This document shows positions 35,254-59,754 of a stretch of 64,000 bases of DNA, in pieces. Origin of the DNA: Metabacillus litoralis (GTDB taxonomy: Bacteria; Bacillota; Bacilli; Bacillales; Bacillaceae); assembly GCF_007994985.1 (NCBI RefSeq), contig NZ_VOQF01000012.1, forward strand, positions 1 through 64,000, written 5' to 3'. Position 1 is the stretch's first letter, and each line of letters starts with the position of its first letter. Made by a program: the position numbers and the translations under genes. The notes under the pieces were generated by a model, which saw only the letters and a program-made list of their open reading frames with translations, did no database searches and had not been told where the DNA came from.

Positions 35254-35994
35254 CTATTCAATGATCTTATTTTCTAAAAAAATTTCAGGATAGTCTGTTA
35301 TTATAGCAGAAACATTAGATTTTATTAACTTGTTGTATTCACTCATCGTGTTAATGGTAAATACACGTATTGGGTATCCACGTTCCTGCACCTTTTTCCC
35401 AATAATAGATTGTGCAAAGCTTGCTTCACAGTGGATAGCCTTAACAGGGATATTTTCTACCACTTTTAAAATATCTACTGGAATTCCCTCGATTAGATAA
35501 GCTGTTTCTATAGAGTCATTAAGCTCATTTATTTTCTTTAGACTTGCTTTGTTAAAAGAAGACAATATACACTGACTTTGTAAATGAAACATATCAATTA
35601 AATGTAGCACCTTTTCCTCAAGCTCCGGATAATCAATAATATCATTTTTCAGCTCAACATTAACTAATAAAGGATAATTTAATGTTGTTACCCATTGTAA
35701 TACCTCTTCTAGTAATGGTATCGATTCTCTGGAAAACTTAGGATGAAACCAGCTTCCTGCGTCAAATCTTTTTAACTGATTCCAAACAAAATCTTTTACA
35801 TATCCAATTCCGTTCGTCGTGCGATCGATTGTTTCATCATGTATAACAACCACCTCACCATCCTTAGTCAACTGCACATCTAATTCGACTCCATGTGCCT
35901 TCACTTTTGCAGCAGCTCGAAAAGCAGCCATTGTATTTTCTGGATACTCCCCACTAACACCTCGATGTGCGAAGAATTGTCTAGTTTCTCCCAT
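35254..35994 (-). CDS. ugpQ: Glycerophosphodiester phosphodiesterase
   Basis: 246 residues, GDPD TIM barrel: FFAHRGVSGEYPENTMAAF (HRG and EN catalytic residues), GVELDVQLTKDGEVVVIHDE (metal ligands E/D and catalytic H), LLVNVELKND. No signal peptide, so cytoplasmic: it hydrolyses glycerophosphodiesters to glycerol-3-phosphate plus alcohol. It follows ugpB on the same strand but after a terminator-like hairpin, so it may be expressed partly independently. AAAAGAGGG precedes the ATG. Confidence 0.9.
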   Translation of the reverse strand: MGETRQFFAHRGVSGEYPENTMAAFRAAAKVKAHGVELDVQLTKDGEVVVIHDETIDRTTNGIGYVKDFVWNQLKRFDAGSWFHPKFSRESIPLLEEVLQWVTTLNYPLLVNVELKNDIIDYPELEEKVLHLIDMFHLQSQCILSSFNKASLKKINELNDSIETAYLIEGIPVDILKVVENIPVKAIHCEASFAQSIIGKKVQERGYPIRVFTINTMSEYNKLIKSNVSAIITDYPEIFLENKIIE

Positions 35995-36164: not shown

Positions 36165-37541
36165 TTACTTTCCTTGCTTTTTATTAGCAACCTCTAGGGC
36201 ACGATTTGTTTCCTCAGCAGCTTGATCAAGTGCTTCTTGTGGATCCATTCCTTGATATAAGTTTTCCATAGCAGTCACAACTTTCTGACGTGATTCAGGG
36301 AAAACAGAAATCAATGCTCCTTGAGTAGCAGTTCCTGGTTTTGTTTCACTAAGTTGATCAACTGTTACCTTTAATTGAGGATACTTTTTCCATTCTTCTT
36401 TTACAATATCTTGGTCATATGCAGCAGGATTAATCGCAAAATATCCTGTTTTCACATGCCAATCTGCTTGAACCTCAGGAGTTGTTAAATACTTCATAAA
36501 TTCCCATGCCGCTCTTTGTTTTTCTTCTTCAATTCCACTTGACATCCATACTGATGCACCACCGATGATAACACCTTGTCTGTCTGCTTCATCAGGAATT
36601 GGTAAATATGAAACACCTACTTCAAATTCTGCATTATCTACAATTGTTTTAACACCTGCTGATGAATCTAAATACATAGCCATTTTCCCTGATTGGAATG
36701 CAGCACGCATATCATCCCAGTTTTGACCTACATTATAAAAAGTTCCTTCATTATACATGTCACTAATTAAATTAAATACATTTAAACCAAGCTCATCATT
36801 AAACGTAGCTTTTGTCGCATTTCCATTACGTCCATTTTCATTATCAACATAATGACCACCTTGTCCAGCTAACATCTCTTCAAAAAACCAACCATAGTTC
36901 AAAATAGAAAATCCATATTGACTTGTTTCTCCACCATCAGCTTTTGTTAATTTTTTTGAAGCATCTTTTAATTCACTATAAGTCATTGGTGCTTTTTCAG
37001 GATCTAAACCAGCTTCTTTAAATGCGTCTTTATTATAAATTAATACTGGTGTTGAAGAGTTGAAAGGCATTGAATATTGTTCACCATCAACTGTGTAGTA
37101 ATTTGAAATGTTCGATTCCCATTGTGATGTATCATAATTATCTTCATCAATGAATTTTTGAACTGGTTGCACATGTCCACTGTCGATCATATATTTTGTA
37201 CCAACTTCAAATGTTTGCATAATCGTCGGTGCATCCTTTGTTCCAGCAACTGTGTTGAATTTTGTTAGTGCTTCTTCATAAGTACCTTGGAAAACAGGGG
37301 TAACTTCGATATCTTCTTGTGATGCGTTAAAATCTGCAACAATATCCTTTAAAACTGTTTCAAGATCTCCACTCATTGCATGCCAAAATACTACCTCTTG
37401 TTTTCCAGCAGTTTCTTCTGTTTTTGTGCCTTCTGTTTTTTCTCCTTCTTCAGATCCTTTTGAATTTGATTGGGAGCTAGAACAAGCACCTAATACTAAT
37501 AATAAAAGCGCAGATAAGATAATTAGAAATTTATTCTTCAT
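36165..37541 (-). CDS. ugpB: Glycerol-3-phosphate ABC transporter substrate-binding lipoprotein
   Basis: 458 residues. Lipoprotein signal MKNKFLIILSALLLLVLGAC with lipobox LGA-Cys, an acidic linker, then a family 1 solute-binding fold: VVFWHAMSGDLETVLKDIV, YSMPFNSSTPVLIYNKDAF, FQSGKMAMYLDSSAGV. The FWHAMSG and FNSSTPVLYYN segments are typical of UgpB. It binds sn-glycerol-3-phosphate or glycerophosphodiesters outside the membrane. GGAGG is eight bases before the ATG at 37541; the longer frame adds a second short start. Last gene of the ugpCAEB block. Confidence 0.9.
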   Translation of the reverse strand: MKNKFLIILSALLLLVLGACSSSQSNSKGSEEGEKTEGTKTEETAGKQEVVFWHAMSGDLETVLKDIVADFNASQEDIEVTPVFQGTYEEALTKFNTVAGTKDAPTIMQTFEVGTKYMIDSGHVQPVQKFIDEDNYDTSQWESNISNYYTVDGEQYSMPFNSSTPVLIYNKDAFKEAGLDPEKAPMTYSELKDASKKLTKADGGETSQYGFSILNYGWFFEEMLAGQGGHYVDNENGRNGNATKATFNDELGLNVFNLISDMYNEGTFYNVGQNWDDMRAAFQSGKMAMYLDSSAGVKTIVDNAEFEVGVSYLPIPDEADRQGVIIGGASVWMSSGIEEEKQRAAWEFMKYLTTPEVQADWHVKTGYFAINPAAYDQDIVKEEWKKYPQLKVTVDQLSETKPGTATQGALISVFPESRQKVVTAMENLYQGMDPQEALDQAAEETNRALEVANKKQGK

Positions 37542-37597
37542 TTGTAATTCCTCCTTGTTTTTCATTAATCTGTCTTCAGCTTATGTATTGTGAAAGA

Positions 37598-38410
37598 TTA
37601 TTTCAGAGCGCCTTGTGTTAATCCTTTTTGTAAGCGTTTTTGACCTAAGAACAAGAGAATGAGCGTCGGAAGTATCACTACAACTACTGCTGCCATTACC
37701 ACCCCCCATTCAGTTGAAATTTCTTGAGATTGCAGCTGTTTCAAACCAATTTGAACAGTTCGAACACTTTCGTTGTTTGTCACAAGCAATGGCCACAGAT
37801 ACATATTCCAAGTCGTTAAAAAGCTATAAATCCCTAGAGTAATCAAGCTAGTTTTTGAAACTGGTAAAACAACATTCCAGAAAAAGCGAAAACGACTAAT
37901 TCCAGCAACTTGAGATGCTTCATATAATTCTTTTGGAATTGTTTTAAATTGCTGTCTTAGTAGAAAGGTACCAAATGCTAAAGCAAAAAATGGAATGGTT
38001 AAGCTTGAATAAGAGTTTAGCCATCCTAGCTTTTGAATGGTTAAGAAGTTAGGTACCATTGTTGCTTCCCACGGGATCATCATGGTTGAGATAAAAAGAA
38101 AGAATATGAATTCTCTTCCCTTAAAGCTAACAAACACAAATGCAAAAGCTGCTAAACTTGATACGATAATTTGACCAAGCATAACAACTGACGAAACATA
38201 GAAGCTGTTCCATAAATATTGGATAAGTGGAACCTTTTCAAAAGCAGATTGATAGTTTTCTAGTGTTAATGATTCAGGGATAATATTTCCTCTTAATACC
38301 TCTCCACCCTGCATAAAGCTAATCATTAATGCATAAAAAATCGGAAACATCATGATTAAAAACGATAGTATTAATAAACTATAAATAACGATTTTCTTTG
38401 TTATACTCAT
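37598..38410 (-). CDS. ugpE: Glycerol-3-phosphate ABC transporter permease UgpE
   Basis: 270 residues, six membrane helices, MalG-like. The EAA loop that contacts the ATPase is ELYEASQVAGISRFRFFWNVVLPVS (E-A-x3-G...P). Its start overlaps the ugpA stop by ATGA, so the two are translationally coupled. Confidence 0.9.
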   Translation of the reverse strand: MSITKKIVIYSLLILSFLIMMFPIFYALMISFMQGGEVLRGNIIPESLTLENYQSAFEKVPLIQYLWNSFYVSSVVMLGQIIVSSLAAFAFVFVSFKGREFIFFLFISTMMIPWEATMVPNFLTIQKLGWLNSYSSLTIPFFALAFGTFLLRQQFKTIPKELYEASQVAGISRFRFFWNVVLPVSKTSLITLGIYSFLTTWNMYLWPLLVTNNESVRTVQIGLKQLQSQEISTEWGVVMAAVVVVILPTLILLFLGQKRLQKGLTQGALK

Positions 38411-39345
38411 TGATAATGCACCTTCCGTTCCCCAATTTTGAATTGAAGAATCGTGACAATTAAAATACAGAAAAATAGAATCGTTGCTTGAGCGCTAGCT
38501 GATCCAACATTGTAATTAATAAACGCTTCTTTATAGATGGAATAAACAATCACATTTGTAGATTCCACAGGCCCACCTTTTGTTAAGATGTCAATTTGTC
38601 CAAACGTTTGAAACGAATTGATTAGTGAAACCGTTATAATGAAAAACAATGTCGGTGACAACATCGGAATCGTAATTTTTCGTAACTTATACCAATAACT
38701 AACTCCTGCTATATCTGCGTTTTCATATAAATGCTCATCAATATTTTGCAATCCACCTAAAAGAATAAGAAAAGCAAAACCAGTGTTCATCCATACCGTA
38801 GAGACAGCAACTGATAGTAGAGCATACTTTGGATCCAACAGCCATTGAGTTTCAGATCCACCTATTGCAACTAGGATTTTATTAAAAATACCGATTGCTG
38901 GGTTATACATGAACATCCAAATCACTGATGATGCTGCAACACTCATCCCCATTGTTGAAGAAAACATTGTTCGAAAAAATCCAATTCCTTTTACCTTTTC
39001 ATTTGATATGACAGCTAAAAATAAGGCCAATATTACACCAACAGGCACTGTATATATGACAAATAAAATGGTTGCTTTTATACTTTTTTGAAAGCTTGTT
39101 GATTGTAAAAGATAAGTAAAATTTTCAAATCCAACAAATGTAATTGGTACACCCTGTCCATCTGTTAAGAAAAAGCTTAAATACAAGGTGCGTAACATTG
39201 GATAAAATAGAAATATGCTAAATAAAAGGATTGATGGTAATAAATACAGTAAACCTACTACAAAGTTTGGTAGCTCTCTTTTCACTTTAAATTCCGTTTG
39301 GTTAACGTTAATCTGTTCAGTGGATAGAGATGGAGTACTACTCAT
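38407..39345 (-). CDS. ugpA: Glycerol-3-phosphate ABC transporter permease UgpA
   Basis: 312 residues, six membrane helices after a cytoplasmic N terminus, MalF-like. The EAA loop reads HLYENADIAGVSYWYKLRKI. Forms the membrane channel with UgpE. The start overlaps the ugpC stop by ATGA. Confidence 0.9.
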   Translation of the reverse strand: MSSTPSLSTEQINVNQTEFKVKRELPNFVVGLLYLLPSILLFSIFLFYPMLRTLYLSFFLTDGQGVPITFVGFENFTYLLQSTSFQKSIKATILFVIYTVPVGVILALFLAVISNEKVKGIGFFRTMFSSTMGMSVAASSVIWMFMYNPAIGIFNKILVAIGGSETQWLLDPKYALLSVAVSTVWMNTGFAFLILLGGLQNIDEHLYENADIAGVSYWYKLRKITIPMLSPTLFFIITVSLINSFQTFGQIDILTKGGPVESTNVIVYSIYKEAFINYNVGSASAQATILFFCILIVTILQFKIGERKVHYQ

Positions 39346-40478
39346 AACATAGCCTCCTTAAGTGTCCGCTTATCCTCAACTTTTTCTTTGTGCCAAATAC
39401 AATCACCACTATCGGCATCAAAAAGTAGCAAATCATCTTCTTTTATATAAAGCGGCATTCTTTCTCCAATATCGATATTCCATTGTCCGTTCCATTTCGC
39501 AATCCATTGCTTCGAACCAACTTCAAAGGTTACCAATGTTTCAGTTCCTAATACCTCCACATTGATTGCATCTGCAAAAAAGCTCATTTTTCCTTCCTTT
39601 GCTAACTGAACACTTTCTGGTCTAATGCCGATCGTTAGATTAGCGGTATTCATAGGTTTCATAGGTAATTCATCCATCATCTTCTTACTAATTGAAATGG
39701 AGCGATTATCTCCTAAAATGAGTGCATGATCTCCTATTTGCCCATTTAATAGATTCATAGGAGGTGCACCAATAAAGGATGCAACAAATGTATTAGCTGG
39801 ATTGTTATAAATATCTAGAGGATGACCAATTTGTTGAACATCTCCGTTATGTAAAATCATCATTCGATCAGCCATGGTCATTGCTTCTGTTTGATCATGA
39901 GTAACATAAATCATGGTAATTCCTAATTTTCGTTGAATTTGCCTAATCTCAGATCGCATTTTTGCACGTAGCTTAGCGTCTAAATTTGATAGTGGCTCAT
40001 CCATTAAGCAAATGGGAGACTGTGTCACAATGGCTCGAGCAAGTGCTACCCTTTGTCTTTGTCCACCAGATAGCTGCCTTGGTTTTCGATTTAATAGTTC
40101 AGATAAACCAAGCATACTAGCAGTCTCTAAACATCGTTTCTTTTGTTCAGCTTTTGTTACTTTTTTCGTATGAAGACCAAATGTAATATTTTGTTCGACA
40201 TTAAGATGCGGATATAAGGCATAGTTTTGAAAAACCATTGATAAATCACGCTGACTAGGAGATCTTTTCGTTGAAAGTAAGTCTCCAATATAAAGGTCAC
40301 CACTGCTAATTTCCTCTAGACCTGCGATCATTCGAAGCATTGTACTTTTTCCACAACCAGAAGGACCTACTAACACAAAAAATTCACCTGGCTCAATTGA
40401 AACATCAATACCTTTTATGACATTTGTTTGTCCATCATAGGATTTTGAGACATTTTTCAATTCAACTTTTTTCATCAT
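39342..40478 (-). CDS. ugpC: Glycerol-3-phosphate ABC transporter ATPase UgpC
   Basis: 378 residues: Walker A GPSGCGKST, signature LSGGQRQRV, Walker B ICLMDEPLSNLDAKLR, and a C-terminal TOBE/regulatory domain from about 240 (FIGAPPMNLLNGQIG, IGIRPESVQL), the MalK/UgpC architecture. Drives UgpA-UgpE. Starts 33 nt after glpP. Confidence 0.9.
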   Translation of the reverse strand: MMKKVELKNVSKSYDGQTNVIKGIDVSIEPGEFFVLVGPSGCGKSTMLRMIAGLEEISSGDLYIGDLLSTKRSPSQRDLSMVFQNYALYPHLNVEQNITFGLHTKKVTKAEQKKRCLETASMLGLSELLNRKPRQLSGGQRQRVALARAIVTQSPICLMDEPLSNLDAKLRAKMRSEIRQIQRKLGITMIYVTHDQTEAMTMADRMMILHNGDVQQIGHPLDIYNNPANTFVASFIGAPPMNLLNGQIGDHALILGDNRSISISKKMMDELPMKPMNTANLTIGIRPESVQLAKEGKMSFFADAINVEVLGTETLVTFEVGSKQWIAKWNGQWNIDIGERMPLYIKEDDLLLFDADSGDCIWHKEKVEDKRTLKEAML

Positions 40479-40511: not shown

Positions 40512-41123
40512 TTACTTAGGATTTTGTGCTACTTTCACCGCTTGCACTTTCCAAAGCCATGGTTTTCCGGTTGAAACAGCAATTGCACCACTATCAAGCG
40601 CACAATCTATGTGCTGCTGATTTCTTATTAAACCTCCTGTAATAATTGGAAGATTTGTTTCCCTCTTAATCTTAGAAATCATTTCAGGAATAAGCGCTGG
40701 CATAATTTCAAGTGCATGTGGCTGGATATCATTTACAGCCAGCAGCCCATTCTTCACTGCATCTGTATCAACTAAAAATAAGCGTTGAATTGTTAGTAAT
40801 CCTTCCTTCTTAGCAAGCTGGATCAGTGAGCTTTTAGTCGTAACAATGCCAGTTGGTTTTACGTATTTGGCAATAAACTTTAGTCCTTCACGGTCATAAC
40901 TAATGCCAGGGATTTTTTCAATATGTAAAAAGACGAACCGATTGTGTTTTTTTAATAAATCAACATAACGTTTGATCACACTAATATTTCCTGTTAATAG
41001 AAAAGCAGATTGAATGCTAGATTCTAAAAAATGATCTAAGCTTTTCGGATCTTTTATAGAAGCAATTAAGCGATCTTCACTTAATCGTTTTATAAATTCA
41101 TTTTGAGCCTCGTGGATATCCAT
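40512..41123 (-). CDS. glpP: Glycerol-3-phosphate-responsive antiterminator GlpP
   Basis: 203 residues, TIM-barrel-like GlpP family: AFLLTGNISVIKRYVDLLKK, FLHIEKIPGISYDREGLKFI, YVKPTGIVTTKSSLIQLAKK, ALEIMPALIPEMI, PIITGGLIRNQQHI. GlpP binds the leader RNA of glp genes with glycerol-3-phosphate and prevents termination. Here it is the first gene of the ugp operon and has a terminator-type hairpin in its own leader (41181-41250). The ATG at 41123 is nine bases after AAGGAA; GTG at 41132 abuts that site. Confidence 0.92.
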   Translation of the reverse strand: MDIHEAQNEFIKRLSEDRLIASIKDPKSLDHFLESSIQSAFLLTGNISVIKRYVDLLKKHNRFVFLHIEKIPGISYDREGLKFIAKYVKPTGIVTTKSSLIQLAKKEGLLTIQRLFLVDTDAVKNGLLAVNDIQPHALEIMPALIPEMISKIKRETNLPIITGGLIRNQQHIDCALDSGAIAVSTGKPWLWKVQAVKVAQNPK

Positions 41124-41180
41124 ACTATTCACTTCCTTATTAATTCTAGTAAAAGCTTAAGCTGTGATTAGTTATAATAA

Positions 41181-41250
41181 CCAAAACAAAAAACCATAAA
41201 AAAACACAGGAGCTACGTTTTCGTAATACGCCTATTTCTTTTTATGGTTT
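41181..41250 (-). promoter_or_regulatory. Leader terminator / probable GlpP antitermination site
   Basis: On the minus strand a perfect 12-bp stem AAACCATAAAAA (41250-41239) / TTTTTATGGTTT (41202-41191) is followed by TTTTGTTTT, an intrinsic terminator about 60 nt before the glpP start. It lies between the predicted promoter and glpP, so the operon must be read through it. GlpP is known to antiterminate at such leader terminators. Confidence 0.6.
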
Positions 41251-41321
41251 CTCATTTTCACAACCTACTTTTTATTCACTTGTCATTCATTACTATCATC
41301 TTACTATCAAAACTTTAAGCT

Positions 41322-41372
41322 AATATGAAGAAATTGTATTAATTTGTAAATCTATTGTTTACTCTTTGTAAA
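41322..41372 (-). promoter_or_regulatory. PhoP-box-like array and promoter of the glpP-ugp operon
   Basis: On the minus strand four six-base direct repeats, TTTACA, TAAACA, TTTACA and ATACAA (41372 to 41334), are each separated by exactly 5 nt. The third doubles as the -35 box, 17 nt before CATATT (41327-41322). PhoP dimers of the Pho regulon bind TT(A/C/T)ACA-like repeats with an 11-bp period. Confidence 0.65.
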
Positions 41373-58737: not shown

Positions 58738-59754
58738 ATTACTTTTGGTCCAAGGATTTTAAAAACAGGATTAGCTGTATCCTTATCAATATACATATGC
58801 TCTTTATTTAACTTTGAACTAGCTGTTTTTGCAGGTGTTGCAGCAATTTTAGCCATACAGCCATCAATTTATCGTACATGGAAACAAATGGTCGACCAAA
58901 TTATCGCCAATACAATTGGCGCGACCATTTCACTATTTTTCATCTACTTCTTTGGTGAAAATCCAGTAATCATTGGATTCGTAATCATCATTGTTATTTC
59001 AATAAGTTTAAAATTAAATATGCAAAGTACCATTCCTTTAACCCTTGTTACTGTCCTGGCAGTTATGAGTGCTGCAGGAAGTGAGGATCTTTATTTTGCT
59101 TTAGAAAGGTTTTACGTCATTTTAATAGGGACATTTACGGCGATTTTAGTTAATCTACTCATTCTTCCACCAAGATATAAAAAGTCATTTATCCAGTCTG
59201 TGGAAAAAACGTTTCAAAATATGTCATTACTTATTAGAACGGCTATTTCTAATGAATTAACAGAAGCAACTTATCAGGAGCATAGCAAGACCTTTAAAAA
59301 GGACATAAAAAAATTAGAAGATCAATTTCTGTTGTTTGATGAAGAAAGAGCAAAGCTTGGAAGAAAAGCTAATCAACTACATGCAAGGGAAATCCTTGTT
59401 TTTAGGCAGTTATTTAAAACGTTACAAGAAGGAGCGCAGTTATTAGAGAATATTGAGGACCACTTTTTTCAAAGTAATAAAATTGAAGAAGAAGCAGAAT
59501 TTTTTGATGATCAGCTTGAACACTTAATTAAGTATCATGAATTCTTACTGTTAAAGTATCAGGGCAAAATTAAAGAAAATCATTCTGGCTTTGATCAAGA
59601 AGATTTTAAAGAAAGCTATGAACTTAAACTAAAATTATACCTACAAAATACAGATCAAAATGTTCGCTTACTAATTGTCGCTTCCTCAATCATCGATTAT
59701 TCCTTTCATTTAAAGCGACTGGATAAACTGATTAGCCAGTTGAATAATCAATGA
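58738..59754 (+). CDS. Aromatic acid exporter (ArAE/FUSC) family protein, ATT start
   Basis: 338 residues if started at ATT 58738, six bases after GGAGGG. The frame contains no ATG/GTG/TTG between an in-frame TAG (58720-58722) and the ATG at 58888, yet the upstream 50 codons encode the conserved family N terminus (TFGPRILKTGLAVSLSIYIC, then FAGVAAILAIQPSIYRTW). Four to five membrane helices fill residues 1-150, followed by a C-terminal cytoplasmic coiled region. Similar to YqjA/YgaE-type DUF939 proteins; probable exporter of aromatic carboxylates. Terminator at 59880. Confidence 0.75.
   Translation: MTFGPRILKTGLAVSLSIYICSLFNFELAVFAGVAAILAIQPSIYRTWKQMVDQIIANTIGATISLFFIYFFGENPVIIGFVIIIVISISLKLNMQSTIPLTLVTVLAVMSAAGSEDLYFALERFYVILIGTFTAILVNLLILPPRYKKSFIQSVEKTFQNMSLLIRTAISNELTEATYQEHSKTFKKDIKKLEDQFLLFDEERAKLGRKANQLHAREILVFRQLFKTLQEGAQLLENIEDHFFQSNKIEEEAEFFDDQLEHLIKYHEFLLLKYQGKIKENHSGFDQEDFKESYELKLKLYLQNTDQNVRLLIVASSIIDYSFHLKRLDKLISQLNNQ

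Follow-up and report, generated by a model that had tools for sequence, protein, structure and literature searches.

The glpP-ugp operon of Metabacillus litoralis is very probably expressed from a sigma-A promoter activated by PhoP, followed in the leader by a terminator under the control of GlpP. Both elements lie on the minus strand of the window, the whole stretch of 64,000 nucleotides that was analysed, in a genome of 4.88 Mb. The original prediction for this operon had already recognised the PhoP-box-like array, which stands, but had missed the GlpP-type leader. The features are collected in Table 1.

Table 1. Features of the glpP-ugp region, with the small-RNA candidate behind phoR in the same genome
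Feature	Position	Strand	Basis or remark
PhoP box 1 (predicted), TTTACA	41367..41372	-	literal read, box-matrix chain, fixed register in relatives
PhoP box 2 (predicted), TAAACA	41356..41361	-	weak, variable box
PhoP box 3 (predicted), TTTACA	41345..41350	-	literal read, chain, relatives
PhoP box 4 (predicted), AATACA	41335..41340	-	10-nt step; TATACA in many relatives
PhoP box 5 (predicted), TTCATA	41324..41329	-	overlapped by the CATATT of the original prediction
PhoP box 6 (predicted), TTAAAG	41313..41318	-	preceded by C in 13/13 non-redundant rows
-10 element (likely), TAAGAT	41298..41303	-	9 nt after box 6; TA...T placement in relatives, pstS distance
GlpP-type leader: AAGTGAATA, GGTT...AACC, terminator hairpin and T run	41183..41284	-	fold, alignment, model
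glpP, G3P-responsive antiterminator	40512..41132	-	PF04309, 201.3 bits, cut-off 27; PDB 3kts_A, E=3e-30
ugpC-like ATPase	39342..40478	-	NF008653 UgpC, 448.7 bits, cut-off 432
ugpA-like permease	38407..39345	-	top NCBIfam match UgpA at 161.5 bits, under its cut-off of 335
ugpE-like permease	37598..38410	-	top NCBIfam match UgpE at 181.4 bits, under its cut-off of 297
ugpB-like binding protein	36165..37565	-	top NCBIfam match UgpB at 270.5 bits, under its cut-off of 411
GDPD enzyme	35254..35994	-	PF03009, 168 bits; 170 nt after ugpB
Small-RNA candidate, about 70 nt, core GAAAACCCCTTCATCCAAGGAGCCAAT and terminator	L160, about 2155-2310; G000:C67:257654-257809	- (in L160)	directly behind phoR

The repeat array and the promoter of glpP-ugp

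Six PhoP-box-like repeats run along the minus strand from 41372 to 41313 in steps of 11, 11, 10, 11 and 11 nt, boxes 2, 4 and 6 being imperfect in the window. Four repeats with 5-nt gaps had originally been described here. A literal check found the letters as stated, TTTACA (41372-41367) AAGAG TAAACA (41361-41356) ATAGA TTTACA (41350-41345) AATTA ATACAA (41339-41334), together with the 17-nt spacing that leads on to CATATT, but the array comprises six boxes rather than four, and ATACAA, though present, is better read one base earlier, as AATACA, after a 10-nt step. An exact search for the three-box string finds a single copy in the window; allowing up to three mismatches gives two against 0.53 expected, and because 9 of 100 shuffles gave at least two such matches, the loose match alone is not rare.

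The PhoP box of Bacillus has the consensus TT(A/C/T)A(C/T)A (TTHAYA). Scores were taken from a box matrix to which ugp contributed nothing: from 43 loci given, 26 distinct arrays were kept, standing at pstS, at a pstS paralogue, at what looks from its sequence like ppk and, in one case, at an unassigned target, and 10 distinct boxes underlie the matrix. In the fixed six-box register the ugp site scored 25.4, the top value on both strands of the window, against a maximum of 19.7 in 100 dinucleotide shuffles of the whole window (14.0 when TA...T was required at +69). The position-matrix scan suggested with the original prediction thus sets the site above 100 of 100 shuffles, and among its six boxes at least two pairs are TTHAYA-like direct repeats with a spacing of about 11 bp. 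When the steps were left free, the chain search of the window again returned six boxes, the last starting 15 nt before TAAGAT. The second-best free-step array, at about 59090-59150 on the plus strand, was rejected: it lies inside an ORF, has no -10 and drops to 12.1 once the register is fixed. A more stringent pattern of our own, 4 x TTHACA at exact 11-nt steps, for which there is no published requirement, gave 8 matches at up to three mismatches in the source genome and 4 for a reversed-pattern control; the ugp site is not among the 8, because its boxes 2 and 4 deviate from the pattern.

Conservation was followed through 27 upstream regions of ugp. These are related, and because several are near-identical (for instance L006/L007 and L010/L111), an identity limit of 80% leaves 13. 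They include records of Rossellomorea sp. and several of Bacillus sp., two other genera of the family, as well as five genomes of the genus whose ugp operon begins with ugpC instead of glpP. L117, in which the match began inside GlpP so that the stretch fell short of the promoter, was counted for the leader and kept out of the array counts, while L013 and L014, repeats of L004 and L005, were not counted. In 26 of the 27 regions the six-box match with the highest score places TA...T exactly 15 nt downstream of the start of its last box, L009, with a best score of 9.1, being the exception; the fixed-register rows were displayed with TA...T required, and the evidence is solely this agreement under free choice. 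The placing of the six-box match in these 26 regions bears out the conservation in related species on which the original prediction had been made to depend. Fixed-register scores are 19.7 or lower in six regions (L006, L007, L008, L009, L018 and L130). With free steps, 11 of 16 regions show the spacing 11, 11, 10, 11, 11 and 15 of 16 have TANNAT at +15; four of the remaining five differ in at least one of the first three steps, and in L018 the chain slid by two boxes, a slip that the fixed register corrected. The free-step chains beat shuffles of their own sequence 200 times out of 200 in 15 of the 16 regions, and 199 times in L018. Across the 13 non-redundant rows the mean information is 0.78 bits in box columns, 0.46 in spacers and 0.89 in the -10, a contrast that does not fix the exact frame of the boxes, since a mask shifted by one base reaches it equally, in part owing to the invariant C that precedes box 6. 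The genes upstream of the array differ between most of the loci inspected.

The position of the -10 is shared with pstS. There it lies 9 nt from the last box in 16 of 16 distinct arrays (TATTCT in 15, TATTAT in 1), and within the source genome the two promoters have the same geometry of last box, 9 nt and -10, with TAAGAT at ugp and TATTCT at pstS. By eye, the ugp promoters have no good -35. The original prediction had instead taken TTTACA-17-CATATT (41350-41322) as -35 and -10. That this pair is the working promoter, with the downstream TAAGAT there by chance, is most unlikely despite 9 of 12 consensus matches and a spacing of 17: CATATT sits on box 5 and varies in relatives, TA...T at 41303-41298 or its counterparts recurs in the 26 regions at the last-box distance seen at pstS, and a promoter scan found 3 TTTACA-17-CATATT-like sites against 1.6 expected. 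The likely -10 is TAAGAT.

A palindromic block occupies the window from 41377 to about 41480, with arms around CATAAGCCAATTAGGAAT...ATTCCTAATTGGCTTATG and the end GGCGCTTACGCTTTT, and stops a few bases short of box 1. L004 and L005 have variants of it in the same position, L113 has a similar end, and L015-L017 lack the block; the window contains the end motif a single time. The block may have been inserted as an element of REP/MITE type that spared the array.

The leader and the genes of the operon

Between this promoter and glpP the leader forms a terminator hairpin at about 41183-41258, which is followed by T's; the energy of the leader hairpin corresponds to z = -4.9, and none of 200 shuffles was as low. 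The motif AAGTGAATA, then GAGAAACC or a close variant, then a terminator recurs in 22 of the 22 upstream regions given. An alignment of 14 leaders has 19 pairs, 5 of them with two-sided changes, so that covariation is modest. When the 3' half is left out, GGUU pairs with AACC in the predicted fold; this pairing is weak, but it cannot coexist with the terminator and is plausible as the antiterminator. The leader model (R1) recovers the ugp leaders and, at lower scores, the glpD leaders L133, L135 and L153 of other genomes of the genus; the glpD leader of the source genome (L002) gave no R1 match and was read by eye instead. The ugp leader is thus a terminator in the 5' UTR that shares its motif with a glpD leader. 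At the ugp leader Rfam gave weak microRNA matches that stay under the gathering score, and none to a bacterial leader family. Three weak matches of the leader model elsewhere in the source genome (C67:320900, C1:416118 and C67:116882) look like ordinary terminators and were set aside.

The glpD leaders also bear on a simpler arrangement, in which an ordinary constitutive promoter would leave the regulation of the operon to the GlpP leader alone. Within the genus a like leader does stand behind a plain promoter at glpD, but the four glpD promoters scored lack an array (-1.9, 0.4, 2.5 and 3.8), whereas the ugp promoters keep theirs over several genera and have no good -35; such an arrangement at ugp is therefore highly improbable, and the preferred reading retains both PhoP and GlpP. 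In genomes G008 and G018 (loci L141 and L142) a gene that by eye encodes a sugar/UgpB-type binding protein has a GlpP-type leader and a three-box array, the latter also read by eye, 9 nt before TATAGT or TATACT. In these genomes a further operon may thus be controlled by both elements.

Among the 21 genomes of the genus, close linked glpP was found in 10 and a ugp leader without linked glpP in 5, the other 6 lying outside the ugp count. The five with a ugpC-first operon (L128-L132; G014, G001, G011, G010 and G005) keep both array and leader, and another copy of GlpP would therefore have to serve them. The source genome holds two further copies, 34% and 30% identical to the GlpP of the operon, whose closest named relatives are those of Metabacillus crassostreae (95% identity) and M. 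litoralis (91%). Judged by eye from the ribosome site, the start of glpP is probably the ATG at 41123.

The gene order glpP-ugpC-A-E-B was found in 7 of 7 named loci, with a GDPD gene after ugpB in 4 of the 7; its membership of the operon is uncertain, and its product has no obvious secretion signal by eye. Because the UgpA, UgpE and UgpB matches fall below their NCBIfam cut-offs, glycerol-3-phosphate (G3P) is not certain as the transporter substrate. The scavenging of phospholipid and teichoic-acid breakdown products, put forward with the original prediction, is a reasonable putative role.

PhoP-type arrays across the genus and a small RNA candidate

The reading of the ugp array as a predicted PhoP site is supported by its conservation, by the shared -10 distance and by the linkage of such arrays to pstS, so that the PhoP-box geometry first noticed in the window holds at the level of sequence. 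At up to two mismatches, the strict 4 x TTHACA pattern gave 72 matches in the 21 genomes of the genus and 6 when reversed, and by comparison of coordinates all 21 have a strict array a short way upstream of their best match to pstS. In the source genome the best strict match (2 mismatches) is 67 nt ahead of pstS and precedes ORFs that by eye resemble pstC, pstA, pstB and phoU. Twenty-nine loci of the genus with strict arrays were read by eye and assigned to pstS (8), a pstS paralogue (4) and ppk (6), with 1 unplaced and 10 showing no phosphate-linked gene; some strict arrays are thus chance matches or have targets that were not recognised. The genome carries phoP-phoR (L160), with 504.6 bits to the PnpS model (cut-off 400), and the best PDB match of the response regulator is 1mvo, 'PhoP response regulator'.

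Several arrays lie elsewhere. Those of L045, L085, L089, L094, L096, L100 and L110, the source genome included, precede a ppk-like gene, presumably for polyphosphate kinase, and polyphosphate storage may be part of the Pho regulon. Near the arrays of L082 and L090 no ORF of at least 60 aa begins, and near that of L092 just one, of 62 aa. The array of L107 is 362 nt ahead of what we take to be an undecaprenyl-diphosphatase gene, and that of L049 stands before a membrane protein presumably of ECF-transporter type.

Read on the opposite strand, the repeats could serve WalR (YycF) in place of PhoP. TTTACA reversed is TGTAAA, which fits the WalR motif TGT(A/T)A(A/T/C)-N5-TGT(A/T)A(A/T/C), boxes 1 and 3 fit both motifs, and the genome encodes WalK (880.9 bits, cut-off 725); moreover, in the accessible part of a paper that gives the motif, a reverse TTAACA/TTTACA pair upstream of pstS of S. 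epidermidis is a predicted WalR site (PMC5405149). Use of the ugp repeats by WalR is nevertheless improbable. At pstS and ppk, arrays of this kind all point the same way, with a fixed distance to the -10 at pstS, and the preference for PhoP over WalR is largest at boxes 5 and 6, which adjoin the -10. Of 78 boxes in the 13 non-redundant rows, 24 fit TTHAYA better, 5 fit WalR better and 49 tie, in a comparison of the Bacillus PhoP consensus with the WalR motif of PMC5405149. PhoP remains the preferred regulator. A literature search, with most subscription papers outside its reach, found no description of PhoP boxes at a Bacillus ugp operon. According to the part of PMC12676729 that is accessible, ugpE and ugpB of B. 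licheniformis are higher with bone char as phosphate source than under phosphate limitation, which would run counter to a plain Pho operon, in another species and with no promoter shown.

A further PhoP-type array of the source genome lies behind phoR (L048), with TATTAT 9 nt after its last box and, past TATTAT, a short unit that has a terminator and no ORF. The stretch behind phoR was matched in 21 of 21 genomes of the genus. A covariance model of nine sequences has 21 pairs, 5 with two-sided changes, all of these in the terminator stem, and at E <= 1e-4 finds matches in 158 of 397 genomes of the order (54 of 136 genera). Of 30 loci returned as the best-scoring among these matches, 24 were read by eye: in all 24 the ORF ahead of the candidate has the end of a phoR-type kinase, and the next ORF is hflK-like in 15, polA-like in 8 and unassigned in 1. 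No gathering-level Rfam match was obtained at the source locus (ncr1241, 24.7 bits against 60) or at the 7 small-RNA loci scanned, where the sole match was to Bacillaceae-1, about 80 nt downstream in L195. The literature search, limited as above, found no description of an RNA located behind phoR.

Pairing of the candidate with the starts of the six genes in the operon is not unusually good, 55 to 182 of 200 shuffles being as low. Near-complementary sites (13 nt, one mismatch) number five in the source genome besides the RNA gene, against 1 for the control. Four lie well inside ORFs; the fifth (L213), by eye, coincides in part with AAGGGG, which may be a ribosome site and lies 10 nt ahead of an internal ATG in a membrane-protein-like ORF. 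There is a fair probability that an uncatalogued, PhoP-driven small RNA of about 70 nt lies behind phoR across the order, and that ugp is a two-key output, through PhoP and GlpP, of a regulon with an RNA arm. Salzberg and co-workers are said to have found in 2015 that full induction in B. subtilis requires PhoP~P to bind the phoPR operon at its 3' end, and the small RNA may be the reason for that requirement. The candidate is a more surprising lead than the ugp promoter.

Proposed two-input control and its known counterparts

In the proposed mechanism, PhoP~P would bind the six repeats head to tail, as three dimers, when phosphate is short, and would recruit RNA polymerase to the -10 TAAGAT where a good -35 is lacking. 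The transcript would then reach the terminator hairpin in the leader. If G3P is present, GlpP, either that of this operon or one of its two paralogues, would bind the leader and favour the alternative GGUU/AACC pairing, and polymerase would continue into glpP-ugpCAEB. Such two-input control, predicted here from comparative sequence data, would join the need for phosphate, sensed via PhoP, to the presence of substrate, sensed via GlpP, and would extend the phosphate regulon of the Bacillales to an ABC-type G3P uptake operon. The rule that relates box to -10 offers a simple, testable means of listing Pho promoters in genomes, and it led to the conserved small-RNA candidate beside phoPR.

The Pho promoters of B. 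subtilis (the pstS, tuaA and phoA class) share with ugp the direct repeats about 11 bp apart, the -10 and the lack of a good -35. The usual number of PhoP boxes in them is four, whereas six boxes with one 10-nt step are found here. To our knowledge, ugp is absent from B. subtilis 168. The accessible text of PMC4415409 describes PHO boxes as direct repeats of 11-nt units, to which binding is head to tail.

The leader has its counterparts at glpTQ, glpD and glpFK of B. subtilis, which likewise carry a 5' UTR terminator of the GlpP-antitermination type; the target here differs in being ugp, an operon of ABC type that opens with the gene of a GlpP paralogue. As far as PMC9604022 is accessible, the B. 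subtilis leaders contain a 5' untranslated terminator relieved by G3P-bound GlpP, and the targets of GlpP include glpD, glpT and glpQ. Since glpQ and glpT are also placed under PhoP in a network paper (PMC2749860; glpQ also in PMC6232261, each accessible in part), the combination of PhoP and GlpP on one G3P operon would not be new in kind. E. coli ugpBAECQ is likewise an ABC transporter operon with PHO boxes; its G3P substrate and phosphate control are predicted in the present case. According to the same portion of PMC4415409, E. coli ugp has multiple PHO boxes and a CRP promoter. There, PhoB is joined by a second, cAMP-CRP promoter that responds to carbon, whereas in the operon described here the second input looks like RNA antitermination.
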